43,621 nucleotides of DNA from Actinomycetes bacterium (lineage in GTDB: Bacteria; Actinomycetota; Actinomycetes; Nanopelagicales; Nanopelagicaceae): contig JANXYY010000006.1 of assembly GCA_025355805.1 (NCBI GenBank), positions 1 to 43,621 of the forward strand, written 5' to 3'. Numbering within the stretch: the stretch's first letter is position 1; every line of letters starts with the position of its first letter. The position numbers and the translations under genes were made by a program. Positions 7,744 to 26,381 of the stretch are shown in pieces. The notes under the pieces were generated by a model, which was not told the origin of the DNA, did no database searches, and worked only from the letters and a program-made list of their open reading frames with translations.

Positions 7744-8910
7744 ATGTCACGTTCCTTGGTCTTGCTTGGTTCAGGTGAGACCAGTCCGACGATGGTCACT
7801 CCGCATCAGCAAATCTTTCAATCGATTGCCGACGATAAACGCAATTCGTCGGTCTATCTCGACACCTCTTTTGGATTTCAAGAGAATGCCGATGAGATAT
7901 CGGAGCGCATCGAAAACTATTTTCTGAATTCAGTCGGCGTGAAGCTGAACCGGGCCAGTCTCAAAACATCCGATGACTCTCCGGCCTCCGTTGCCGAAGC
8001 GTTGGCTGCGGTTCGTGCCGCGCACTGGGTTTTTGCTGGACCTGGGAGCCCAACCTATGCATTGGGCGTCTGGCAACAGAGCGGGATGGCGGCAGCACTC
8101 GAAGACGTGCTTGATCGCGGCGTCGTCGTATTCGCGTCCGCTGCTGCGTTGACCGCCGGTACGCATACGGTGCCGGTGTACGAAATTTATAAAGTGGGCG
8201 AACGACCATCATGGCGTGAGGGCATGGATCTTCTAAGCAAAGCGACCGGACTTAAGGCTGCGGTAATTCCACACTTTGATAATGCCGAAGGTGGTACTCA
8301 CGACACTCGTTTTTGTTACTTAGGTGAACGGCGACTTTCCTTACTTGAAGAACAATTGCCCGTCGACACATTCATTCTGGGGATCGACGAACACACCGGC
8401 CTACGCATAGATCTCGATGAACAACTAGCGCATGTTTTTGGTCGCGGCGGTATGACGGTGCGAATGGGCGGTCATCTTTGGACGGTGCCAGCCGGCGAAA
8501 CGGTTTCCGTCGCAGATATTGCGGCTCATGCAGGCACGCGACTTGCAAATGTAAAAGTCGAATCCGCGGAACGGCTGAACTTGCGACACGTGGAAGAGAT
8601 GATTGAGTCGGGTCGAGTCAATGATGCGGTCGAGGCATTACTTAATTTGGACGAGATAGATCGAGATATTGATACGCGCGCAGTAGTGCACGCACTCATC
8701 ACCCGACTTGGACAGTTAGCCGCGAGCCCTCGAGTCGACGTGCGTTCGATCGTTGGTCCTTATGTGGATGCGCTTCTTGAGGCGCGACAACTGGCTCGTC
8801 AGAACAAACGGTGGGACGAGGCGGATAGCATTCGCGACCGATTAACTGAGTTGAAAGTCATAATCAAGGATGATTCCAACGAGTCTTCCTGGGAAATTGA
8901 ATTGACGTGA
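7744..8910 (+). CDS. Peptidase S51 / type 1 glutamine amidotransferase-like protein with CysS C-terminal-like domain
   Basis: N-terminus LVLLGSGETSPTMV, FAGPGSPTYALGVW, VVVFASAAALTAG. C-terminus YVDALLEARQLARQNKRWDEADSIRDRLTELKVIIKDDSNESSWEIEL resembles the extreme C-terminus of cysteinyl-tRNA synthetase. Confidence 0.75.
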   Translation: MSRSLVLLGSGETSPTMVTPHQQIFQSIADDKRNSSVYLDTSFGFQENADEISERIENYFLNSVGVKLNRASLKTSDDSPASVAEALAAVRAAHWVFAGPGSPTYALGVWQQSGMAAALEDVLDRGVVVFASAAALTAGTHTVPVYEIYKVGERPSWREGMDLLSKATGLKAAVIPHFDNAEGGTHDTRFCYLGERRLSLLEEQLPVDTFILGIDEHTGLRIDLDEQLAHVFGRGGMTVRMGGHLWTVPAGETVSVADIAAHAGTRLANVKVESAERLNLRHVEEMIESGRVNDAVEALLNLDEIDRDIDTRAVVHALITRLGQLAASPRVDVRSIVGPYVDALLEARQLARQNKRWDEADSIRDRLTELKVIIKDDSNESSWEIELT

Positions 8911-9611
8911 ATCCTGGGCCACTTGCGTTGGTGGGATCTGGCGAATATTTGCCGGTAATGCTTGAAATTGAACGCGAGTTGCTTAATGGGCGCCCCAGCA
9001 AATATGTCCAGATTCCCCTTGCTGCTGGGCTCGAAAATGACGAATCGCTTGACTATTGGGTGCGCCTTGGTCAAGTTCAAGCGGAACGTTTAGGCGTCGA
9101 ATCGGTACCGCTTCGCGTCCGTGATAAAAAGGACGCAGACGATCCCGACATTGCGCAACTGGTCAAAGGCGCAGGGCTCATTTATCTATCAGGTGGCAAT
9201 CCCAGCCACCTGGCGAAATCCCTACACGAGACGGCTTTGTGGAGAGCAATCGTCAAGGAGTGGCAGGGTGGAGCGGCGCTCGCTGGTTGCAGTGCTGGCG
9301 CGATGGCGCTCACGGATTGGGTTCCAGCATTTCGCTTACCTATGCAAGAGCCAACGCGCGGCCTTGGCCTTCTACCGCATCTGCGAGTCCTGCCGCATTT
9401 TGATCGCATGTTCACGAGGATTCCCGAATTATTATCACGATTCTCCGACGTGCCAGATGGTGTAATTGTGATCGGGATTGATGAAGATACTGCGATGGTC
9501 GGTGGGCCATATCAGTGGACCGTGCAGGGACGGCAATCTGTTTGGTTGCTCAACGGTTCGCACCGGCAGGAGTTCCGCTCCGGGGATGTAGTTACTACAC
9601 CTAAAATTTAG
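8907..9611 (+). CDS. Peptidase S51-like / type 1 glutamine amidotransferase-like protein
   Basis: LALVGSGEYLPVM, LIYLSGGNPSHLAKSL and AGCSAGAMAL (Ser nucleophile elbow). Overlaps upstream gene by 4 bp (GTGA). Confidence 0.82.
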   Translation: MNPGPLALVGSGEYLPVMLEIERELLNGRPSKYVQIPLAAGLENDESLDYWVRLGQVQAERLGVESVPLRVRDKKDADDPDIAQLVKGAGLIYLSGGNPSHLAKSLHETALWRAIVKEWQGGAALAGCSAGAMALTDWVPAFRLPMQEPTRGLGLLPHLRVLPHFDRMFTRIPELLSRFSDVPDGVIVIGIDEDTAMVGGPYQWTVQGRQSVWLLNGSHRQEFRSGDVVTTPKI

Positions 9612-9702
9612 GCACGTAACGACGGCGTAAAGATTGCGAATCGTCTATCTCAATTAGCTACTTTTATCCACGACGTACTTATAGAGGAGGTACCTTTCTG
9701 CA

Positions 9703-12054
9703 GTGACAACTTCGTGGTCAGATGCCGGTACTCCACCTGTTCCACTCGCGCCTCATACCCACGCGAAGGACTCGATCAGTTACCGACTCAAACGGAAGCT
9801 ACTCGGATATCCGCTAACAAGGGACGCCCTAGGCCATCAACGGCTCACTAAAGTAACCGCGCTTGGCGTGCTCTCGTCGGATTGCATCTCATCCTCGGCG
9901 TATGGCAGCGAGCAGATTTTAGTCGCCTTGATTCCTTTTTTTGGCGTCGCAGCCTTTGCCATTCTGATGCCCATGACGTTGGTTATTCTTGCGGTGCTTC
10001 TTGTCGTCACCCTGTCATATCGAGAGGTTGTCTCGGTATATACCCACACGGGTGGCTCCTATGTGGTTGCCCGCGATAACTTTGGTCCCATAGTCGCGCA
10101 AGTGGCGGCAGTAGCATTAATGCTTGATTATGTTGTGACGGTCGCAATCCAATCGGCGGCGGGTACCGCAGCCCTTGTTTCAGCTTTTCCCGTATTAGGC
10201 CCGTGGAATCTGACCATAACAATTGGGGTAGTTCTCATTCTCTTTTACGGGAATGTACGCGGCGTTCGAGAGGCAGGAAAAGCCTTCGCATTCCCAACTT
10301 ATTTCTTCGTGGCTTCAATGTCCATCGTTCTGGTCGTCGGCTTGATTAGGGAGGCCACTGGTCATCTAGTTCGATATCCGATCCCCACACATGGCGTAGA
10401 GCACATCGGAACAGCGCACGGACTGCTCGCCTTGGGGTCAATTTTTTACTTACTGCGCGCCTTTGCAAACGGCGGCTCGTCCCTCACTGGTCTCGAAGCA
10501 ATCTCGAATGGGGTTAGCCTTTTTAAGCCGCCTGAAGGCCGAAACGCTCGCAGAACGTTGACCATAATGAGTGCAATTCTCGGTACTCTCGTTCTTGGTG
10601 TGTCCTGGTTTGCTTACAAGACTCATGCTTTTCCATATACCAGTGGGACACCGACTGTGATTTCGCAAATAGCGTCAAATATTTTAGGTCGCGGTGTCCT
10701 TGGTCACTCACTCTATTTGCTCGTACAGCTCGCGACCATGCTTGTGCTCTACACCGGCGCGAACACTCCTTTCAGTGGCTTTCCGTTCTTAGCAAACTTC
10801 ATCGCGGAGGATGGCTTCTTGCCACGGCAGTTAATGAAGCGGGGTCATCGACTCGCATTTTCCAATGGCATTATCGTGCTGACCTCTTTTGCGATTGCCT
10901 TGCTACTCGTCATCGGATCCCACGTAGATAAGCTCGTTGCATTCTATGCAATCGGCGTTTTTGTAGGTTTCACGATGGCTGGTTTCGGGATGGCAAAGCG
11001 TGCTTTTGTTCGGAAAGAAAATGGCTGGCGTCGGCGAATGGCGGTAAATCTTACGTCAGGCATAACGTCGATGATCATCGTCGTTATTTTTGCAGTCTCT
11101 AAATTCACCGAGGGCGCCTGGCTCGTGCTTCTAATCTTCCCAATCGCGGTCATTGGGTTGATTCGTTTGCATCGACAATACGTAAGAGAGAACGAGATTC
11201 TGGCTGTAAACGCGACGGCGGGTGCATCTACGAATATCGCACGACATGACATAACAGTCCTGGTTGATTCAGTTGATTTGGCCACCGCAGGCGCCGTGAG
11301 ATACGCGCGGAGTCTTCGGCCACATTCGCTTCGTGCTGTTCACTTTGTCGTCGATGATCAGCATGCTCAAGTCGTTCAGAAGGCATGGGCGGATTCCATG
11401 TCGGTCAGTGATATTCCTCTGTCTCTGATTGATTGTCCCGATCGACGACTTTCCAATGCTGTTGCGGATTATTCACTCCGAGTTACGGCCAATCAAGGCG
11501 TTGAGTTAACTCTTCTGCTTCCTCGTCGTTCTTACTCGCCCTTCCTGGGAAGACTCCTACACGACAACACCGCTGAAACAATCGCCAGGGGCGTTAGCCA
11601 ATTACCGCGTGTGGTTGCGACGATCGTTCCCTTTGATGTCGAACGGATCCTCGCTGTTTCAGAAGATGCGTCCGTTGCCATAGAGGCACTCGTTCCGACG
11701 GGACCCGTCGTCATTAAGGCGCGCGTCGTGGAGAGCGAGACAGATTGGTCGCCTACTAATACGGGGCCCGAGGGGCAAATTCCGATAGGTGAACTTAGGT
11801 GGCGTAAGCGGGCGATCATCGAGGGCAAGATCTCGGCGATGCGTGTTGCACCACAGGCGTCCTCACCTTCCCTGGAGGTAGAGGTATGGGATAAAACGGG
11901 TGGAATTACGCTTCATTTCTTGGGACGCGAGCGAATCTATGGACTAGCGGTGGGGGCCTCGGTTAGGGCTGAAGGGATGGTCGGCGAACACGATGGCGCC
12001 TTTGCCATTTACAATCCAAGTTACGTCCTACTGCCTGGCGGAACTCCACCGTAA
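9703..12054 (+). CDS. APC-superfamily permease with cytoplasmic extension and C-terminal OB-fold-like domain
   Basis: SVTALGVLSSDCISSSAYGSEQIL-type N-terminus and about 12 TM segments. C-terminal LRWRKRAIIEGKISAMRVAPQASSPSLEVEVWDKTGGITLHFLGRERIYGLAVGASVRAEGMVGEHDGAFAIYNPSYVLLP reads as an OB-fold. GTG start. Confidence 0.87.
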   Translation: MTTSWSDAGTPPVPLAPHTHAKDSISYRLKRKLLGYPLTRDALGHQRLTKVTALGVLSSDCISSSAYGSEQILVALIPFFGVAAFAILMPMTLVILAVLLVVTLSYREVVSVYTHTGGSYVVARDNFGPIVAQVAAVALMLDYVVTVAIQSAAGTAALVSAFPVLGPWNLTITIGVVLILFYGNVRGVREAGKAFAFPTYFFVASMSIVLVVGLIREATGHLVRYPIPTHGVEHIGTAHGLLALGSIFYLLRAFANGGSSLTGLEAISNGVSLFKPPEGRNARRTLTIMSAILGTLVLGVSWFAYKTHAFPYTSGTPTVISQIASNILGRGVLGHSLYLLVQLATMLVLYTGANTPFSGFPFLANFIAEDGFLPRQLMKRGHRLAFSNGIIVLTSFAIALLLVIGSHVDKLVAFYAIGVFVGFTMAGFGMAKRAFVRKENGWRRRMAVNLTSGITSMIIVVIFAVSKFTEGAWLVLLIFPIAVIGLIRLHRQYVRENEILAVNATAGASTNIARHDITVLVDSVDLATAGAVRYARSLRPHSLRAVHFVVDDQHAQVVQKAWADSMSVSDIPLSLIDCPDRRLSNAVADYSLRVTANQGVELTLLLPRRSYSPFLGRLLHDNTAETIARGVSQLPRVVATIVPFDVERILAVSEDASVAIEALVPTGPVVIKARVVESETDWSPTNTGPEGQIPIGELRWRKRAIIEGKISAMRVAPQASSPSLEVEVWDKTGGITLHFLGRERIYGLAVGASVRAEGMVGEHDGAFAIYNPSYVLLPGGTPP

Positions 12055-13479: not shown

Positions 13480-13516
13480 GCCTTTCATTCCGGCCGCGCG
13501 GGGCTACTCTGCTGTG

Positions 13517-14602
13517 ATGACGAGTGCGGAGCGAACTGCGATCAGTAGTGCTGTTGCCACGCTTAATCCCGGTTATTTTGCTCTAGTCATGAGCACTGGC
13601 ATTCTCTCAGTCGGGATGCACAATGAGAATTTGCCTATTCTTTCGACAGTTTTACTCTGGATTTCGATCATCAGTTACCTCGTCCTGGTGGCCCTGAATA
13701 TCTGGCGAGCGATCGCGTTTCCTGCACAACTGCGCATCGATTTTGCAGATCCGCGTAGAGGCTTCGGCTTCTTCACCTTTGTGGCGAGTTCCGATGTGCT
13801 GGGCACCCGACTCGCCCTCGCGGGTGTTCACCGGTTCGCTTTTTTACTTCTCACCGTGGGCTGGCTCAGTTGGCTCGCGCTCGGATACATCGTGCCTTGG
13901 ACAGCACTGCTCGGCCGCGCTGATCGTCCAGTCCTTGCCGGCGCAAACGGGACTTGGTTCATCTGGGTGGTAGCCAGCGAGTCGGTCGCCGTGCTGGCCG
14001 CCAGCCTAGAGCCGACGGTGATTTTCGGACGGCGCGAGTTGGCGCTCCTTGCAGTTCTCTCGTGGTCGGTCGGAATCTTTCTGTACGGTGCTGCTGGCAT
14101 CTTCGTAGGCGCACGGCTGATGCTCTATCCGCTTAGTCCGATCGATTTGAACCCGCCCTACTGGGTGGCCATGGGAGCAACCGCGATAACAGTCCTCGCG
14201 GGAGCACGCATCGTCGAGATGGCCGAAGCTCCAATTGTCGTTGCCACACGTGGACTTATTGCCGGGCTATCGGTTGTCTTCTGGGCGTTCGGAAGTTGGC
14301 TCATACCCGTGCTCGTGGCCGCAGGCTGGTGGCGTCACGTTAAAAACCGGGTTCCGCTCCGCTATGAAGCGACTTTATGGAGCATCGTCTTCCCACTCGG
14401 AATGTACGGTGTCGCGGCGTACTACTTAGGTCAGGCCGATCATCTCCCGATCGTCGCCACAATTGGTCACACTGAAATTTGGGTGGCTCTCGGCGCGTGG
14501 ATTCTGACCTTCGTGGCCATGGTGGTTCACCTACTACGCACTCTGCTCTGGCAGCCGCAAATTTTGTTACCAGAGCAGAGTGCGCCGTTCCAGGCAACCT
14601 GA
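13517..14602 (+). CDS. TDT family (TehA/SLAC1-like) transporter
   Basis: LNPGYFALVMSTGILSVG N-terminal motif; about 10 TM helices. Confidence 0.85.
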   Translation: MTSAERTAISSAVATLNPGYFALVMSTGILSVGMHNENLPILSTVLLWISIISYLVLVALNIWRAIAFPAQLRIDFADPRRGFGFFTFVASSDVLGTRLALAGVHRFAFLLLTVGWLSWLALGYIVPWTALLGRADRPVLAGANGTWFIWVVASESVAVLAASLEPTVIFGRRELALLAVLSWSVGIFLYGAAGIFVGARLMLYPLSPIDLNPPYWVAMGATAITVLAGARIVEMAEAPIVVATRGLIAGLSVVFWAFGSWLIPVLVAAGWWRHVKNRVPLRYEATLWSIVFPLGMYGVAAYYLGQADHLPIVATIGHTEIWVALGAWILTFVAMVVHLLRTLLWQPQILLPEQSAPFQAT

Positions 14603-14613
14603 ATAGAGAGCCG

Positions 14614-15348
14614 TTAGTTGGCGTTGTGCCCGATGCGAACTCGCCATACCTTGGGACCAGATTCGAGATAATTCCAATCGAACTTTCCGGTCTCCTCGGC
14701 CTCGAATTGGTAATAGAGCGGCTTGGGGTCGTGGTCATTCACAAGTACGAAGGCTTCACCGAGTGGCGTTGCTGCATACGTTTGAAAAATCAACTCATGG
14801 CGCGTTGCTGGCGGTTCATTTCGCACGTCTAATTCGTGGTCAGGGCCGGTTGGGGTTGGACCGGCCATTGGCAACAGCCGAGTCGGCTCACGGTAGGCGT
14901 TGAATCGTTCTTCCATAAAAGGAAGCAACGCCACTAGATCAACGTTCGGGTCGGCAGCGAGTGCGGGGAGCAGCAATTCGTTTTCTCGTCGCACGTGTCC
15001 AACAAAAATTTCTCGAATTGCTCGAGCGATTCCGGATGCATCAACGGCCGAAGGTGCCGTCCCCAGTTCTGCAGCGAGCGCAAGCAGAGTTTCATGTTCG
15101 AAGAGCATTCCAGCGACGAGCAAGCGCAACTCTTTGGAGCTCGCCGCCGCATAGAGCACGTCCTCCTCGGCACGTGCGTGCGGCACTATGTCATGAGCGA
15201 GTAACGCTTTAAGCGCAGCCAGTGCAGGTCCTTGTGATTGATCGGCTCGAGCACTCTCGATCACTTCTTCGACCCTAGCCGAGAGCGCGGCTTGCAGTTC
15301 AGTGTGGTGGTCGGTGATGGCACTGACCACGTCAGCGGTAATTGTCAT
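14614..15348 (-). CDS. Hemerythrin-like domain plus C-terminal DUF2249 domain protein
   Basis: N-terminal HHTELQ...HDIVPHARAEEDVLY...EHETLL...HVRRENELLLPAL (hemerythrin His/Glu pattern). C-terminal ELDVRNEPPATRHELIFQTYAATPLGEAFVLVNDHDPKPLYYQFEAE is DUF2249-like. Confidence 0.88.
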   Translation of the reverse strand: MTITADVVSAITDHHTELQAALSARVEEVIESARADQSQGPALAALKALLAHDIVPHARAEEDVLYAAASSKELRLLVAGMLFEHETLLALAAELGTAPSAVDASGIARAIREIFVGHVRRENELLLPALAADPNVDLVALLPFMEERFNAYREPTRLLPMAGPTPTGPDHELDVRNEPPATRHELIFQTYAATPLGEAFVLVNDHDPKPLYYQFEAEETGKFDWNYLESGPKVWRVRIGHNAN

Positions 15349-17731: not shown

Positions 17732-18970
17732 GTGAAAATCCAATACGCTCCAGTTGTGACGAACATGGAATTCCAGAGACCGACTTCTTCCACTTCCTCG
17801 GCCACCCCCATCCGCCCAGGTGCCTATCTGCAATTACTGCTGGCAACGATGGGATTTGGTCTCAACTTTTGGGCCTGGGCTTTAATTGGGCCACTCGGGC
17901 CTGCGTATAAAAACTCCCTCGGCCTAACGTCCTTCCAGCAAGCCTTAGTCGTCGCCCTCCCAGTCCTGGTCGGCTCCTTGGGTCGGATCCCCGTGGGTGC
18001 TTTAACCGATCGGTACGGGGCCCGGGTTATGTTCCCGGTTATTAGTTTCTTGACAATGCTCCCACTGCTTTATCTGGCTTTTTTCGGGGAAAGTTTGAAC
18101 CAACTCCTGATCGGCGGGTTCTTCCTCGGACTCGGCGGAACCACCTTCGCGATCGGAATCCCACTTGTAAACAGTTGGTTCCCACCCGAGCGACGAGGAT
18201 TTGCCCTTGGCATTTTTGGCGCTGGTATGGGCGGAACTGCGATCTCTGCATTTACGACGGTGAAGCTGGCCGAGGCGCACACCCGCTCATTCCCATTTTT
18301 GCTGGTCACCGTGGTACTCGCGGTCTACGGGCTTCTTGCGATTATTTTGGTTCGAGATGCCCGGACACCGGGAAAAATTGACGGTGGGTTCTGGAATCGC
18401 ACGTGGACAACGATGCGAATGGGCATCACCATGAGGCTTTCCGCCCTTTATGCAGTTGGATTTGGTGGTTTTGTAGCCTTTAGCGTCTACCTAGTTACCT
18501 ACCTGAAGAATGCCTACGGATTGACCCAGGCGGATGCCGCTTCGCGCACTGCTGGGTTCGTGGTTCTCGCAGTCATCGCTCGACCTATTGGCGGTTGGCT
18601 CTCCGACCGCTTTCATCCGGTTCCGGTTCTCACAGGTTGTTTCACCCTCGTCACTCTTCTCGCGGGGGTGGCCTCCTTTCATCTTGAGCTTGTTCCGCTG
18701 GCGACGCTGGCCTTTCTGGGCATGGCCGCGGGTCTCGGAGCGGCAGCCGGAGCCTGCTTCGCGCTCGTCGCTCGGATGGCCCCAGCCCAATCCGTCGGAT
18801 CAGTAACCGGGGTCGTTGGCGCAGCTGGTGGACTAGGGGGCTTTATACCGCCGCTCGTTATGGGTCTAGTTTTCGGCCGGACTGGAAGTTACACGATCGG
18901 ATTCATCTTGCTCACTGCGGTCGCTCTCTCGGCGGCGATTTATACCTGGTTCGGGATGAGCCACCAATAA
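17732..18970 (+). CDS. narK: MFS nitrate/nitrite transporter NarK (start may be the ATG at 17765)
   Basis: MFS fold; RIPVGALTDRYGARVMFP, GLGGTTFAIGIPLVNSWFPPERRGFALGIFGAGMGGTAIS (nitrate-signature-like), GAAAGACFALVARMAP. Immediately upstream of nar genes. Confidence 0.92.
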   Translation: MKIQYAPVVTNMEFQRPTSSTSSATPIRPGAYLQLLLATMGFGLNFWAWALIGPLGPAYKNSLGLTSFQQALVVALPVLVGSLGRIPVGALTDRYGARVMFPVISFLTMLPLLYLAFFGESLNQLLIGGFFLGLGGTTFAIGIPLVNSWFPPERRGFALGIFGAGMGGTAISAFTTVKLAEAHTRSFPFLLVTVVLAVYGLLAIILVRDARTPGKIDGGFWNRTWTTMRMGITMRLSALYAVGFGGFVAFSVYLVTYLKNAYGLTQADAASRTAGFVVLAVIARPIGGWLSDRFHPVPVLTGCFTLVTLLAGVASFHLELVPLATLAFLGMAAGLGAAAGACFALVARMAPAQSVGSVTGVVGAAGGLGGFIPPLVMGLVFGRTGSYTIGFILLTAVALSAAIYTWFGMSHQ

Positions 18971-18985
18971 TCACGGTGCAAAACA

Positions 18986-18999
18986 AATTGATCACAATT
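18986..18999. promoter_or_regulatory. Inverted repeat AATTG-ATCA-CAATT, candidate operator upstream of the second nar regulator
   Basis: Perfect 5-bp arms with 4-bp spacer just upstream of a TAAGTT -10-like hexamer (19006-19011). Confidence 0.4.
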
Positions 19000-19019
19000 C
19001 GATGCTAAGTTCCGGTGCT

Positions 19020-19709
19020 ATGCAGACATTGGGCAGCCGGGCGATCTTGCTTGAGTCGATCCAAGGCCGACGAGAACTCGTGAGTATTCAGGAACTCTCG
19101 CTCGCCTCAAGACTCCATCCAAATACTGTGCGTACTCATTTAGATTCGCTCCTTGCTACCGCTGAGATTGAGCGGGAGCAAGCACCCTCTGCAGGTCGCG
19201 GGCGCCCCATGTGGCTTTACCGAGCCGCCGTGAAGAAACCCTCACCTTATGAGATGCTCGCCGACGCGCTCGTGCATCAACTGGGACAGACCGATGACCC
19301 CGCGCTGATGGATCACGCAGCGAAACGCTGGGCTGATGCCGCCGCGGCAGGTGTCTCAGGAGTTACGCCGTCGGACGGTGATGAGGCTGTTGATCAATTG
19401 ATGAAAGCTTTGCAAAACGTGGGTTTTGCGGTTTCCGGCAATGCTGTCGGTGATGAAATTTCGATTACTGAGTGTCCGTACGCTGCGATCGTTGAAGCGC
19501 AACCACGAGTGTGTGACGTACATGCCGCGCTTGTAACGGAATTACTTTCGCGGTCAACTCAACCTATCACCCTCAAACGTCTTGATGTTTGGGTCAAAAC
19601 AGGAATTTGTGTAGCACACTTGAGTCGAGTCGACCTAACTCCGGCTCGCACAATTGATCCAACAAATATCGCAGGAATCAGCGCAGAACGGATTGATGAT
19701 GAAGAGTAA
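19020..19709 (+). CDS. HTH transcriptional regulator, related in architecture to the 16915-17601 product
   Basis: Winged-HTH (VSIQELSLASRLHPNTVRTHLDSLLATAEIEREQAPSAGRGRPMWLY). C-terminal CPYAAIVEAQPRVCDVH...WVKTGIC. ORF also open from ATG 19002. Confidence 0.83.
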   Translation: MQTLGSRAILLESIQGRRELVSIQELSLASRLHPNTVRTHLDSLLATAEIEREQAPSAGRGRPMWLYRAAVKKPSPYEMLADALVHQLGQTDDPALMDHAAKRWADAAAAGVSGVTPSDGDEAVDQLMKALQNVGFAVSGNAVGDEISITECPYAAIVEAQPRVCDVHAALVTELLSRSTQPITLKRLDVWVKTGICVAHLSRVDLTPARTIDPTNIAGISAERIDDEE

Positions 19710-22700
19710 GAATGAATCAAGTCCCGCAGTCGCAGAATTTCTCGTAAAGGCTGGACGGTTCTTTAACGCGGGTGAAACGTCACCGGATCTGCGAACGATC
19801 ACTAAAAAAGGTGGGCGTGATGGTGATGTTTTTTACCGCGATCGATGGAGCCACGACAAGGTAGTGCGAAGCACGCACGGGGTTAACTGCACCGGATCTT
19901 GCTCTTGGAAAGTTTATGTAAAAGACGGAATCATCACTTGGGAAACGCAGCAGACGGATTACCCCTCAATTGGTCCTGACACACCGGAATATGAGCCTCG
20001 AGGTTGCCCGCGTGGGGCAGCATTTTCTTGGTATACCTACTCTCCAACTCGCGTCCGCTACCCGTATATCCGCGGTGTTCTCCTCGATGCATATCGCAAG
20101 GAGAAGGCGAAGGGCCTGGACGCAGTTGACGCCTGGGCGGCTGTAGTGCAGAACTCCGACACCCGTAAGAGGTATCAACGCGCACGAGGTAAAGGTGGCT
20201 TGGTTCGAGTTGGCTGGGATGAAGTCGCTGAGATTATTGCAGCGGCGCATCTCTACACCGCAAAAGAGTATGGGCCCGATCGAATCTTCGGCTTCTCGCC
20301 GATCCCCGCAATGTCTATGGCATCTCACGCGGTTGGCGCACGCTTCATCTCACTCATGGGTGGTGCGATGCTTTCGTTCTACGACTGGTACTGCGATTTG
20401 CCCGTGGCAGCGCCACAAGTTTTTGGTGATCAGACAGATGTTCCGGAATCTGCTGACTGGTGGAATGCCTCTTACTTGATCATGTGGGGCTCGAATGTTC
20501 CGGTGACTCGCACACCCGACGCTCACTTCATGGCGGAAGCGCGTTACCGTGGACAGAAAGTAATTGCGGTATCGCCGGATTATGCAGATAACACAAAATT
20601 TGCCGACGAGTGGATGTCGCCGCACCCGGGGACTGATGGTGCTCTTGGGATGGCGATGGGCCATGTGATTCTGAAGGAATTCTTCATTGATCGTCAGATC
20701 CCGCGTTTCGTCGAATATGTAAAAACGTACAGCGACTTGCCATTTCTGGTGACCCTGCGGGAGAAGAATGGCGCTTGGGTTCCAGACAAATTCGTTACTT
20801 CGGCTGATCTCGGCGATGAGAACGAGGGTGCTGAGTTCAAGACAGTTCTAATTGATTCGCAAACTGGGAAGCCATATGTGCCGAATGGCTCTCTGGGTTT
20901 TAGGTTTAATGAATCAGGTAAAGGGAAGTGGAATCTCGATCTTGAGGGGGTTGATCCAGCACTCTCATTCTTCGGGTCACAAAATTCCGAAACCGCTGAG
21001 GTCTTGCTCCCGCGCTTTGATATTGGACAAGATAAAGACGAGAAAGGCGGCGTTCTTTCACGAGGCGTGCCTGCAGCGCGTCTTGCGACAAAAAATGGCG
21101 AGCGCCTGGTCACCACCGTCTTTGATCTAATGCTCGCGCAGTATGGCGTTAAGCGCGACGGGCTACCTGGTGATTGGCCAAGTGGCTATGACGATCCAAA
21201 GCCCTACACGCCTGCCTGGCAAGAAGAAATCACCGGAGTGCCGGCGGAACAAGCTGCACGTATCGGACGAGAATTTGCGCAGAATGCAGCAGATTCAGGT
21301 GGTCGATCAATGATCATTCTCGGCGCTGGGACAAACCATTGGTTCCACTCCGACACGATTTACCGCACTTTCCTCGCCCTCATCACGCTCACGGGTTGCC
21401 AAGGGGTCAATGGCGGCGGTTGGGCTCATTACGTCGGTCAAGAAAAGGTCCGCCCAGTTACCGGTTGGGCACAGTTGGCCTTTGGTCTCGATTGGTCACG
21501 CCCACCACGCCAAATGATCGGCACTGGATTCTTCTACGTGAATACCAATCAATGGCGCTATGACCAAATAGGTGCGGATGCTCTCGCCTCGCCGTTAGGT
21601 GAAGGACGATTTAAAGATCGCGCACTTATTGACACGCTCGCCCAATCTGCGCGTTCGGGTTGGATGCCCACCTACCCAACCTTTGATGTAAATCCCCTTG
21701 AAATCGCCAAGCGCGCTGAGGATCTAGGCAAAACTCCATCAGACTTCTTGGCCGACGCTCTTCAATCAGGTGATGTTAAGTTTGCAATTGAAGATCCTGA
21801 TGCGCCTGAGAATTGGCCGCGCGTTCTTACGGTATGGCGGGCGAATCTACTTGGCTCCTCGAGCAAAGGGAATGAATACTTCCTTCGACATTTGCTTGGG
21901 GCGGATAACTCGGTTCGGGCTAACGAGAGTGTGCAAGAGGTACGACCTCAGGAAGTCACTTGGCGCGAAGAAGCGCCAGAAGGAAAACTGGATTTATTGG
22001 TCAGCATTGATTTTCGCATGACAAGTACGGGTCTATTCGGCGATATCTTGCTTCCTGCCGCGACTTGGTACGAGAAACACGATCTTTCGAGCACTGACAT
22101 GCACCCATACGTCCACGCATTTTCCCCCGCGATCGATCCACCGTGGGAGACAAAGACCGATTATGAAATTTTCCAGGCGCTTGGCCGGAAAGTGTCAGAA
22201 CTCGCGCCTGGTTATCTGGAATCAGTCACTGATGTCGTCGCGGTGCCGTTGCTTCACGACACTGCGGATGAAATGGCGCTGCCAGGCGGCGTCGTACGCG
22301 ACTGGCACAAGGGTGAAGTCCCACTCATACCGGGCAAGACGGCACCAAAGTTTGTTACCGTCGAACGCGATTACCGCACGATCGGTGCGAAGATGTCATC
22401 GCTTGGACCGCTGGTTGAAAAACTTGGCACGCTGACCAAAGGAGTTCACGTCGATCCAACCATTGAGGTCGGGATCCTTGCGCGAGTAAATGGGGTGATT
22501 AAAGATGGCCCTGCCGCGGGACGACCATCGTTGGTAACCGATACAAATGCTTGTGAGATGATCCTGGCCCTTTCTGGAACCACTAATGGGCGAGTCGCCG
22601 TGGCTGGCTTCGAATTTCTTGAAGAGCGCACTGGTCGACCACTCGCAGATCTGGCACGCGATAACGAAGGGAAGCGAATCACCTTCGCCGATACCCAATC

Positions 22701-23394
22701 TCGACCGGTGCCGGTCATCACGAGCCCTGAGTGGTCAGGGAGCGAGCATGGTGGTCGCAGATATACGGCTTTTGCGATCAACGTTGAAAGACTAAAGCCG
22801 TGGCACACTCTTACTGGTCGTCAGCACTTCTTTCTTGACCACGATTGGATGAGCGAGATCGGTGAATGTTTGCCAACCTTCCGACCTCCGCTGAACATGC
22901 ACAGGATCTATGGTGATCAGGGTCTTGGTGCTGGCAAAGAAGTAACCGTGCGATATTTGACGCCGCACTCAAAATGGTCGATTCACTCCGAGTACCAAGA
23001 CAACTTATTTATGCTCTCACTTTCGCGTGGTGGACCCGAGATCTGGATGAGTCCGCAAGATGCAGAAACTATCGGCGTGAAGGATAACGAATGGATTGAG
23101 GCATATAACCGCAACGGTGTTGTGGTTGCGCGCTCCATCGTTTCGCACCGGATGCCGGCTGGCACCGTATACATGTATCACGCGAAGGATCGGACGATAG
23201 ATGTACCGAGAACCGAGATCACCGGCCTGCGTGGTGGTGTTCACAATTCGCTTACCCGATTGATGATCAAACCAACCCACCTTGTTGGTGGATACGGCCA
23301 ACTGTCCTTTGCATTCAACTATCTAGGACCGACGGGGAATCAACGTGACGAAGTAACTGTTATTCGCCGTCGTTCGCAGGAGGTCGTTTACTAA
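19696..23394 (+). CDS. narG: Respiratory nitrate reductase alpha subunit NarG
   Basis: THGVNCTGSCSWKVYVKDGIITWETQQTDYPSIGPDTPEYEPRGCPRGAAFSWYTYSPTRVRYPYIRG. ATG 19696 overlaps the end of the regulator gene by 14 bp. Confidence 0.98.
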   Translation: MMKSKNESSPAVAEFLVKAGRFFNAGETSPDLRTITKKGGRDGDVFYRDRWSHDKVVRSTHGVNCTGSCSWKVYVKDGIITWETQQTDYPSIGPDTPEYEPRGCPRGAAFSWYTYSPTRVRYPYIRGVLLDAYRKEKAKGLDAVDAWAAVVQNSDTRKRYQRARGKGGLVRVGWDEVAEIIAAAHLYTAKEYGPDRIFGFSPIPAMSMASHAVGARFISLMGGAMLSFYDWYCDLPVAAPQVFGDQTDVPESADWWNASYLIMWGSNVPVTRTPDAHFMAEARYRGQKVIAVSPDYADNTKFADEWMSPHPGTDGALGMAMGHVILKEFFIDRQIPRFVEYVKTYSDLPFLVTLREKNGAWVPDKFVTSADLGDENEGAEFKTVLIDSQTGKPYVPNGSLGFRFNESGKGKWNLDLEGVDPALSFFGSQNSETAEVLLPRFDIGQDKDEKGGVLSRGVPAARLATKNGERLVTTVFDLMLAQYGVKRDGLPGDWPSGYDDPKPYTPAWQEEITGVPAEQAARIGREFAQNAADSGGRSMIILGAGTNHWFHSDTIYRTFLALITLTGCQGVNGGGWAHYVGQEKVRPVTGWAQLAFGLDWSRPPRQMIGTGFFYVNTNQWRYDQIGADALASPLGEGRFKDRALIDTLAQSARSGWMPTYPTFDVNPLEIAKRAEDLGKTPSDFLADALQSGDVKFAIEDPDAPENWPRVLTVWRANLLGSSSKGNEYFLRHLLGADNSVRANESVQEVRPQEVTWREEAPEGKLDLLVSIDFRMTSTGLFGDILLPAATWYEKHDLSSTDMHPYVHAFSPAIDPPWETKTDYEIFQALGRKVSELAPGYLESVTDVVAVPLLHDTADEMALPGGVVRDWHKGEVPLIPGKTAPKFVTVERDYRTIGAKMSSLGPLVEKLGTLTKGVHVDPTIEVGILARVNGVIKDGPAAGRPSLVTDTNACEMILALSGTTNGRVAVAGFEFLEERTGRPLADLARDNEGKRITFADTQSRPVPVITSPEWSGSEHGGRRYTAFAINVERLKPWHTLTGRQHFFLDHDWMSEIGECLPTFRPPLNMHRIYGDQGLGAGKEVTVRYLTPHSKWSIHSEYQDNLFMLSLSRGGPEIWMSPQDAETIGVKDNEWIEAYNRNGVVVARSIVSHRMPAGTVYMYHAKDRTIDVPRTEITGLRGGVHNSLTRLMIKPTHLVGGYGQLSFAFNYLGPTGNQRDEVTVIRRRSQEVVY

Positions 23395-25028
23395 TGCGTG
23401 TTATGGCCCAAATCGGCATGGTAATGAACCTGGACAAGTGCATTGGCTGTCACACCTGCTCGGTCACTTGCAAACAGGCCTGGACGAATCGTCCTGGGCT
23501 TGAATACGCGTGGTTTAACAACGTGGAGACCCGTCCTGGCCAGGGGTATCCACGCACGTATCAAGACCAGGAGAAGTGGCAAGGCGGTTGGGTTCTAAAG
23601 CGCGGCAAGTTGAAACTGCGCTCGGGTGGAAGACTTTCGCGTCTTGCCAAGATCTTTAGCAATCCGCGTCTACCCGGAATTACGGATTACTACGAACCAT
23701 GGACGTACGACTATGAAACGTTGATCTCGTCCCCACTTGGTGAGCACACACCAGTCGCTCAACCTAAATCGTTACTCACAGGTAAACCAATGAAAATTTC
23801 ATGGTCGGCAAACTGGGACGATGATCTCGCGGGTGGACCCGAACTCGCAGTTGACGATCCGATCTTGAAAAAGATCAAGAATGAGGTTGGAGATCGAGTA
23901 AAGCTCGAATTCGAGCAAGCTTTTATGTTTTATCTGCCACGCATCTGTGAGCACTGCCTAAATCCTGCCTGTGTTGCCGCATGCCCATCTGGTGCTATGT
24001 ATAAGCGGAGCGAAGATGGCATTGTTCTCGTAGATCAAGATGCCTGCCGAGGCTGGCGCATGTGCGTCACCGGCTGTCCCTACAAGAAGGTCTATTTCAA
24101 TCACCGCACGGGCAAAGCCGAGAAGTGCACCTTCTGCTATCCGCGCATCGAGGTGGGCCTACCAACCGTCTGCGCCGAGACATGTGTTGGTCGGCTCCGT
24201 TACATAGGACTCTTCCTATACGACGCAGACAAAGTCACTGCTGCGGCAGCGACTGAGGATCCGCAGGCGCTTTATCAGGCCCAATTGGATCTCATTCTTG
24301 ATCCACATGACCCAGACGTTCAAGCGGCGGCGCTTCGAGATGGGATCGCGGCGGACTGGCTTGAGGCAGCCGAAAAATCTCCGGTCTATCGCTTGGCCAA
24401 GGAATTCAAGGTTGCCCTTCCCTTGCATCCGGAATATCGCACGTTGCCAATGGTCTGGTACATCCCTCCACTTTCGCCAGTCGTTGAAGCACTTCGCGAT
24501 ACCGGGCACGATGCAGAGGAACACGGGAATCTCTTTGGCGCCCTTGATCAACTGCGGATTCCCATCGAGTACCTTGCTGAACTCTTTACCGCTGGCGATA
24601 TCAAACCGGTAATGCACTCGCTCAAGATTCTTGCATCGATGCGCTCATATATGCGCGATGAAAACCTCGGCCGGCAGACCCGTCCAGAAATTCCCGCCAG
24701 CGTCGGTATGAGTGAAACCGAAATTCGTAGCCTTTATCGTCTCTTAGCAATTGCAAAGTACGAAGATCGCTATGTCATCCCCAAGGCTCACGCGGAGATC
24801 GGCCACGAATTGGAAGAGCTCGCATGCTCTGTTAGCGACTCTGTAGGGCCAGACATATACAAGTCGGGGCCATTCGGAGAATCGTCGGGGCGACCAGTTC
24901 CAGTTTCGATCGAATCCTTCCATGCTCTAAAGCAACGTCAGACTTCGGAGGTGATCGTTCCGGTTGAAGATCTGAGCGGACGCGCCAATCTCCTCAACTG
25001 GGATGGAAAAGGGGCTCCAAATGAGTAG
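23394..25028 (+). CDS. narH: Respiratory nitrate reductase beta subunit NarH
   Basis: MVMNLDKCIGCHTCSVTCKQAWTNR, CEHCLNPACVAACPSGAMYKR and CRGWRMCVTGCPYKKVYFN ferredoxin motifs; TAATG coupling to narG. Confidence 0.98.
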   Translation: MRVMAQIGMVMNLDKCIGCHTCSVTCKQAWTNRPGLEYAWFNNVETRPGQGYPRTYQDQEKWQGGWVLKRGKLKLRSGGRLSRLAKIFSNPRLPGITDYYEPWTYDYETLISSPLGEHTPVAQPKSLLTGKPMKISWSANWDDDLAGGPELAVDDPILKKIKNEVGDRVKLEFEQAFMFYLPRICEHCLNPACVAACPSGAMYKRSEDGIVLVDQDACRGWRMCVTGCPYKKVYFNHRTGKAEKCTFCYPRIEVGLPTVCAETCVGRLRYIGLFLYDADKVTAAAATEDPQALYQAQLDLILDPHDPDVQAAALRDGIAADWLEAAEKSPVYRLAKEFKVALPLHPEYRTLPMVWYIPPLSPVVEALRDTGHDAEEHGNLFGALDQLRIPIEYLAELFTAGDIKPVMHSLKILASMRSYMRDENLGRQTRPEIPASVGMSETEIRSLYRLLAIAKYEDRYVIPKAHAEIGHELEELACSVSDSVGPDIYKSGPFGESSGRPVPVSIESFHALKQRQTSEVIVPVEDLSGRANLLNWDGKGAPNE

Positions 25029-25647
25029 CGAGTTAGCAGCAGCACGACTTGCTTCGGCTTGGCTGCTCTACTACCCGGACGAAGAACTGTTAGCGAAGTT
25101 GGATCTCATCGCTGGCGCGGTTGGGAGCCTTCCTGGGAAGATGCGCATTCCCCTCGAATCGTTTCTTGCTCACCTTCATGACACTCCACTTCGAGATATT
25201 CAGCAGCACTACGTAGGCATCTTCGATATGAAGCGGAAGGCATGCCCATACTTGTCATACTGGACGGATGGAGACACGCGTAACCGAGGACAGGCCATCT
25301 TGCGTTTCAAAGAGGTTTATCGGGACGCGGGGTATGACTTAGACAAGCGCGAACTCGCCGATCACATCGCCGTCGTCCTTGAATTCGCATCCGTTGATCC
25401 GCTAAATGGCGAGGCCTTGCTTCATGAGCACCTGGCCCCGATCGGATTGATGCGCGATGCGCTAATGCAGATGGGATCCGTCTATTTCCACGTTCTTGAT
25501 GCGGTGCTTGCCACCTTGACTGAAATCACGCCCACCGTGCGCGCGCGCATGGCCGAACTAGCTAGCTCGGGCCCGCCCGTGGAAAGTGTGGGACTTGAGC
25601 CATTTAGCATTACTTCGTTTGCCCAAGGATCGGGCGCCCGACGATGA
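25021..25647 (+). CDS. narJ: Nitrate reductase molybdenum cofactor assembly chaperone NarJ
   Basis: LLYYPDEELLAKL...DIQQHYVGIFDMKRKACPYLSYWTDGDTRNRG...LPDHI-like segment; position between narH and narI. Confidence 0.95.
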   Translation: MSSELAAARLASAWLLYYPDEELLAKLDLIAGAVGSLPGKMRIPLESFLAHLHDTPLRDIQQHYVGIFDMKRKACPYLSYWTDGDTRNRGQAILRFKEVYRDAGYDLDKRELADHIAVVLEFASVDPLNGEALLHEHLAPIGLMRDALMQMGSVYFHVLDAVLATLTEITPTVRARMAELASSGPPVESVGLEPFSITSFAQGSGARR

Positions 25648-26381
25648 ATTCGAACCTGAGCACCCCTGATGTCCTCTTGTGGGTAGCGTTGCCGTACGTT
25701 TCGTTCACCATTTTGGTTGTCGGGTTAATTTTGCGACATCGATATGACAATTTTGGTTGGACTTCACGCTCCAGTGAGCTCTACGAGAAGCGGATCCTGC
25801 GAATCGCGAGTCCCCTCTTTCACTACGGAATGTTGGCAGTTGTTGGTGGGCACGTCGTAGGTTTACTAATTCCCGAATCATTTACGTCCTCGCTGGGATT
25901 GAGTGATCGCCAATATCACCTCACCGCTGTGACAGCGGGTCTTGGCGCGGGCGTGGCCACCATCGTTGGATTACTTCTGCTCATTTACCGTCGTCGGACA
26001 GTCGCTTCAGTCTTTGCGGTCACGACAAAGAACGACAAGGCGATGTACATATTTTTACTTGGTGCCATAGTTCTAGGTGTTCTGACCACGGTATTGGGCT
26101 CGGGCGCAGTAGGCAAGGCGCACAATTATCGAGCTGATGTTTCTCCGTGGTTTAGATCGATTATTTTTCTACATCCGAAGCCTCAGTTAATGAGTGGCGC
26201 CCCGTTGTCTTATCGAGTCCACGTGATCGGCGCGCTGCTGCTCTTCATGATCTGGCCCTTTACCCGGTTGGTACACGCGTTAAGTGCGCCTGCGCAATAT
26301 CTATTTAGGCCCTACGTGATTTATCGGAGCAAGGATTCGCAAGGGCTTGGTAATCGGGAGAGGCAGCGTCGGGGTTGGTGA
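25644..26381 (+). CDS. narI: Respiratory nitrate reductase gamma subunit NarI
   Basis: Five-TM cytochrome b; RSSELYEKRILRIASPLFHYGMLAVVGGHVVGLLIPESFT and PLSYRVHVIGALLLFMIWPFTRLVHALSAP. Confidence 0.97.
   Translation: MNSNLSTPDVLLWVALPYVSFTILVVGLILRHRYDNFGWTSRSSELYEKRILRIASPLFHYGMLAVVGGHVVGLLIPESFTSSLGLSDRQYHLTAVTAGLGAGVATIVGLLLLIYRRRTVASVFAVTTKNDKAMYIFLLGAIVLGVLTTVLGSGAVGKAHNYRADVSPWFRSIIFLHPKPQLMSGAPLSYRVHVIGALLLFMIWPFTRLVHALSAPAQYLFRPYVIYRSKDSQGLGNRERQRRGW

Follow-up and report, generated by a model that had tools for sequence, protein, structure and literature searches.

Domain layout of the fused gene

The window, that is, the whole stretch of 43,621 nucleotides analyzed here, carries at positions 9703 to 12054 of its plus strand one uninterrupted frame of 783 amino acids, which begins with GTG, ends with TAA, and is referred to below as the KimA-OB gene. 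A Shine-Dalgarno-like GAGGAGGT (9684 to 9691, same strand), read from the sequence, lies 11 nt upstream of the start codon. The coding sequence opens with a transmembrane LeuT-fold domain (residues ~27 to 500; 9781 to 11202), delimited by alignment to KimA and by Foldseek. It is followed by a cytosolic PPAT-like domain of the KimA type (residues ~513 to 648; 11239 to 11646), delimited by the KimA alignment and the secondary structure of the model, in which HDNT (residues 620 to 623; 11560 to 11571) aligns with and replaces the c-di-AMP-binding HNQS of KimA (residues 579 to 582). A variable, disordered tether (residues ~649 to 690; 11647 to 11772), with low identity among relatives and a pLDDT of <50 over residues 653 to 690, leads to an OB-fold domain (residues ~691 to 777; 11773 to 12033), assigned from AlphaFold2, Foldseek, and homology to the stand-alone actinobacterial OB protein. 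According to the alignments, GRERIYGL (residues 741 to 748; 11923 to 11946), between strands 3 and 4, is the GRRxIxG(I/L) loop of the family, with E where most members have the second R, and NPSY (residues 771 to 774; 12013 to 12024) is the invariant NPxY of the last strands.

Full-length relatives of the window protein share about 50 to 63% identity with it, and no conserved gene neighbor is common to the window and these relatives. In the window, position 7744 to 8910 encodes a peptidase-S51-like protein (a weak match, E = 0.0034) with a C-terminal CysS_C domain (E = 2e-9), which resembles the anticodon-binding domain of cysteinyl-tRNA ligase; a second S51 protein (8907 to 9611) adjoins it. 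Further downstream are a narGHI respiratory nitrate reductase set with a NarK-like transporter, MFS type by its sequence (17732 to 26381), and, upstream of narGHI, genes for a SLAC1-type transporter (13514 to 14602) and a hemerythrin-DUF2249 protein (14614 to 15348).

The carrier resembles KimA

The original prediction described the carrier as an APC permease. The transporter assignment stood; the unspecified APC identity gave way to a KimA/KUP-type K+ importer (6s3k/8b70). The only Pfam match is the broad AA_permease_2 (PF13520; 74.6 bits), a superfamily-wide model, and residues 27 to 564 match Bacillus subtilis KimA, the closest solved relative, with E = 8e-99. When the full-length AlphaFold2 model (monomeric and of modest confidence, with a pLDDT of 67 and a pTM of 0.56) was searched with Foldseek, the KimA structures 8b70, 8b71, and 6s3k were the top three matches, over ~600 aligned columns. 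In KimA, D36, Y43, T121, T230, E233, D117, and Y377 bind or gate K+ or couple protons (PMC6994465, PMC10284832). The equivalents of D36, Y43, D117, T121, T230, and E233 are identical in every aligned fused sequence, and that of Y377 is kept in the window protein and in all the others but one divergent member. On the strength of these conserved residues, the window protein is a putative K+ importer of the KimA/KUP type; a generic amino acid permease is unlikely given the KimA homology and the retained K+ residues.

B. subtilis KimA, a KUP-family K+/H+ symporter, has the same LeuT-fold membrane domain and PPAT-like cytosolic domain but, unlike the window protein, lacks an OB domain. The canonical actinobacterial KimA, found in a cluster with trkA and a TRAM-domain gene (Rv2690c type), belongs to the same family at about 33 to 38% identity to the fused KimA, whereas it is unfused, forms a separate clade, and keeps the HNQS and V457 of the c-di-AMP pocket.

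The C-terminal domain is predicted to form an OB barrel

The claim that the last ~90 residues form an OB fold was borne out by structure prediction, which could instead have yielded no barrel. For the isolated domain, AlphaFold2 predicted a five-strand OB barrel with a pLDDT of ~90 to 95 over residues ~690 to 778 and strands at residues ~703 to 718, 721 to 729, 734 to 740, 753 to 763, 766 to 770, and 773 to 776; the full-length model places much the same strands after the disordered tether. Foldseek returned ten matches at E ≤ 0.001 (best, 1.7e-4), among them RPA, CST/Stn1-Ten1, and Lys-tRNA-synthetase OB proteins, and its best matches overall were the OB folds of RPA, CST, archaeal RPA-like proteins, Lys- and Asn-tRNA synthetases, and RecG (1gm5). 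A sequence search of the domain against solved structures gave nothing significant. The Pfam tRNA_anti-codon (OB) model matched 23 of 30 fused members (best E, 1.2e-7), with the window member alone falling below the cutoff, and RecG_wedge matched 9 of the 30. The OB barrel of the window protein is thus a well-supported prediction. The RecG wedge and tRNA_anti-codon folds share its topology with a faint sequence match, but they belong to DNA and RNA enzymes, while the window protein has neither a helicase nor a synthetase.

The fused domain is homologous over its whole length to the stand-alone actinobacterial OB protein of the Rv2694c type (phmmer E values of about 1e-7 to 1e-14), and the two have the motifs D-x-[ST], GRRxIxG, and NPxY in common. 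The stand-alone protein is encoded by a separate gene upstream of DUF3159 and has its own N-terminal stretch, whereas the fused OB makes up the C-terminal end of KimA.

The fusion is widespread and under selection

In our genome panel, f denotes a family and G a genome; f1 is taken to be Nanopelagicaceae ("acI"), one of the most common bacterial groups in fresh water. A search across 84,980 species genomes yielded at least 573 relatives, including Candidatus Planktophila and Candidatus Nanopelagicaceae. Among the best 80 of these, 74 have a complete fused frame with the same junction, and the other 6 are cut on their 5' side by a contig start. A frameshift or assembly artifact joining two genes was ruled out: the frame is open throughout, and the junction recurs in many independent assemblies, including closed genomes. 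The natural fusion that had been proposed therefore holds.

In the family set, which comprised the genome of the window and 112 Nanopelagicaceae genomes with a completeness of 90% or more, 104 of 113 carried the fused type, in a few cases solely as fragments truncated by contig ends, and 3, all of one genus (g6), carried the unfused type alone. Each single-contig genome of the family has exactly one copy, which is fused. A KimA match of either type was absent from 6 of the 113 (G010, G040, G041, G304, G322, and G323); these are fairly complete assemblies, and missing contigs, the sole explanation we can offer, may account for them. Outside f1, the same architecture occurs in at least 12 families (f7, f10, f11, f12, f14, f18, f21, f24, f27, f33, f37, and f40), and also in f4, whose OB is more divergent. 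In G002, G004, and G034, small OB-only matches close to contig ends resembled re-split domains; they are most plausibly fused genes truncated there.

The membrane and cytosolic domains average 67% and 70% pairwise identity, respectively, and the OB domain 62%, against 19% for the tether; 21 of 96 OB columns are invariant, compared with none in the tether. Close pairs gave dN/dS values of 0.02 to 0.10 for the OB domain and 0.11 to 0.51 for the tether where computable, many dS values being near saturation. Purifying selection acts strongly on the OB domain but not on the tether, so that a folded unit is kept on a freely changing tether.

In a tree of the KimA part, the fused sequences fall into one clade (support 100/99, with G058:C77 included), apart from the canonical cluster KimA. 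Unfused relatives within or beside this clade are two Streptomyces plasmid copies, tandem copies in G211, and G058:C77. The tandem copies at L154 (G211:C141) are two fused-clade KimA genes without an OB domain, and the L155 copy of the same genome has a divergent one. Most simply, this would reflect a single old fusion within a paralogous KimA lineage, followed by a few OB losses; the base of the clade is poorly resolved (88/66). A recent in-place fusion of two cluster genes was ruled out, because the fused KimA forms its own clade and is located elsewhere in most genomes.

Stand-alone OB and KimA genes are clustered and lost together

The genome of the window also has the separate versions. 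Its contig C25 carries dut, a 113-amino-acid OB gene, DUF3159, two trkA genes, and the start of a canonical KimA gene, and contig C176 probably carries the end of that gene, adjoining a TRAM-domain methyltransferase gene. The fused gene itself sits outside the dut-DUF3159-trkA cluster, and the separate OB copy sits inside. The order dut-OB-DUF3159-<trkA-<trkA-KimA-TRAM occurs across the class, in some genomes without a recognized DUF3159, and the TRAM gene is tRNA-methyltransferase-like. The neighborhood of APC, Trk, and DUF3159 genes that had been described for the stand-alone OB was thus recovered in the window's own genome and in the canonical loci examined.

In fused-only f1 genomes with the cluster fully covered (L118 to L122 and L191), dut is followed immediately by DUF3159 and trkA immediately by TRAM; OB and KimA are both gone, and the neighbors are kept. 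Another such locus (L192), covered up to the trkA pair, has dut directly followed by DUF3159 with no stand-alone OB between them. The same joint loss was seen in G191 (f33), G236 (f40), and G071 (f24), and in G059 (f12) the fusion occupies the former place of KimA and no OB is left. Loss of only one of the pair was not seen in any fusion genome with a fully covered cluster. Two f33 genera (G117 and G157) keep both separate genes with no fused copy detected, and G000, which in the KimA tree is the basal member of f1, retains both along with the fusion; the f1 and f33 losses therefore look like at least two, mutually independent events, and those in f40, f24, and f12 are likely to be independent as well. 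Fusion, KimA, and OB occur together in ten genomes (G000, G054, G068, G074, G095, G107, G109, G118, G202, and G244).

Across a class panel of 248 genomes, counted by hand from tables at thresholds of E ≤ 1e-40 for KimA and E ≤ 1e-15 for OB, with fused genomes scored as both and phylogeny ignored, 209 had KimA and OB, 10 KimA only, 5 OB only, and 24 neither. Nine of the 10 KimA-only genomes belong to f35, the main exception to the pairing: in G158, G184, G201, G219, G228, G237, G245, G269, and G292, KimA was present and no convincing OB homologue was found.

Potassium importers and c-di-AMP in Nanopelagicaceae

TrkH was found in none of 49 f1 genomes and KdpA in none of 61, while Kup was present in 2 of 61 and a K+-channel-type pore in 10 of 61. 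With so few other importers, KimA-OB is the only recognizable K+ importer in most f1 genomes. Two TrkA (RCK) genes are nevertheless retained in the f1 cluster loci that were read, although TrkH was not found, and KimA-OB is the evident candidate partner of these two proteins.

We then considered c-di-AMP, which the original prediction had suggested as a ligand. In B. subtilis KimA, c-di-AMP occupies the interface of the cytosolic domain with the TM8-9 loop, in a pocket formed by R337, V457, P479, V506, F568, and H579 to S582 (PMC10284832). Compared with this protein, the fused clade has the changes V457E, V506F, F568R, N580D, S582T, and R587A. Together with the nested unfused members, it has E457 throughout, R568 with one exception, and mostly F506, D580, T582, and A or S587; within the fused clade, H579 is kept and R337 mostly so. 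The canonical actinobacterial KimA retains V457, V506, and HNQS. A DAC (c-di-AMP cyclase) domain was detected in 29 of 31 other genomes but in none of the 49 f1 genomes searched. Because the pocket is rewritten and the cyclase was not found in these 49 genomes, c-di-AMP seems an unlikely ligand or control input of KimA-OB, judging from sequence. The changed pocket also occurs in fused members from families that have the cyclase, and the unfused g6 KimA keeps HNQS with no cyclase detected; pocket change and cyclase loss are thus not tightly coupled.

Possible roles of the OB domain

The fusion, the gene order, the joint loss, and the joint presence all link OB to K+ import. Our main reading, to which we give a probability of roughly 0.6, is that OB is a regulatory subunit of KimA, separate in most actinobacteria and built in here. 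Carried on a flexible tether of ~40 residues at the KimA C terminus, it would serve as a dedicated cytosolic control subunit. Its docking site may be the cytosolic domain or the TM8-9 loop, the site of c-di-AMP action in B. subtilis KimA; a ligand or phosphorylation acting through the OB domain could set how freely the importer cycles. The earlier argument that a natural fusion would make OB work with the transporter gains from the breadth of the fusion and the loss of the stand-alone pair together; its regulatory part is something we infer, as are control of transport and a physical OB-KimA contact. The domain is not strictly required, since some fused-clade members lack it and f35 has KimA without a convincing OB. 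A broader version is more tentative and, in our estimate, has the odds somewhat against it: the Rv2694c-type OB would be the regulatory subunit of actinobacterial KimA in general, and in acI, where it is built in, it would govern the usually sole recognizable K+ importer in place of c-di-AMP.

Since OB resembles nucleic-acid-binding folds, other roles are conceivable. The domain might sense nothing itself and act as a structural or docking adaptor that stabilizes KimA dimers or brings in the TrkA/RCK pair encoded in the cluster. The long, disordered tether would suit such a role, as would the retention of the RCK pair in fused-only genomes, where no TrkH or Ktr partner was found and KimA-OB is the only evident one. 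We consider this unlikely, as the conserved basic loop and invariant NPxY would fit a ligand or peptide site no less well than a scaffold. Less probable still is that OB binds RNA or single-stranded DNA, its attachment to KimA tethering, for example, nucleic acid or the neighboring RNA methyltransferase at the membrane. The closest Foldseek matches, with RPA, CST, RecG, and tRNA-synthetase OB folds, are a similarity of fold only, and OB folds bind proteins and small molecules too; the tRNA-methyltransferase-like TRAM gene does belong to the canonical cluster, but it remains when OB and KimA leave, so OB tracks KimA rather than the RNA enzyme. The clade members lacking OB might suggest a functionless fusion, arisen by neutral accident or as an assembly artifact; we regard this as refuted by conservation: the junction is the same across independent assemblies and closed genomes, and dN/dS in the OB domain is 0.02 to 0.10.

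A regulatory OB subunit would have bearing beyond acI. Among the matches listed, our literature search gave no relevant paper that names KimA with an OB domain or deals with acI potassium uptake. Rv2694c is presumably the stand-alone OB protein, judging from a peptide motif and its locus, and we take its peptide RIPGIDTGR to be the conserved loop of the OB family. This peptide is phosphorylated in Rv2694c (PMC4322841), and transposon mutants of ceoB and Rv2690c in Mycobacterium tuberculosis share a rifampicin survival phenotype (PMC12216072).

In other actinobacteria, the stand-alone OB is likely a working partner of K+ importers. An OB protein found across actinobacteria thereby gains a concrete, testable function tied to K+ import. 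Most acI genomes seem to rely on a single importer, with the cyclase undetected, and the question of how these bacteria maintain K+ homeostasis becomes a testable one. Finally, mycobacterial K+ control through CeoB/CeoC and Rv2690c, including that of the tuberculosis bacterium, may involve the same OB partner.
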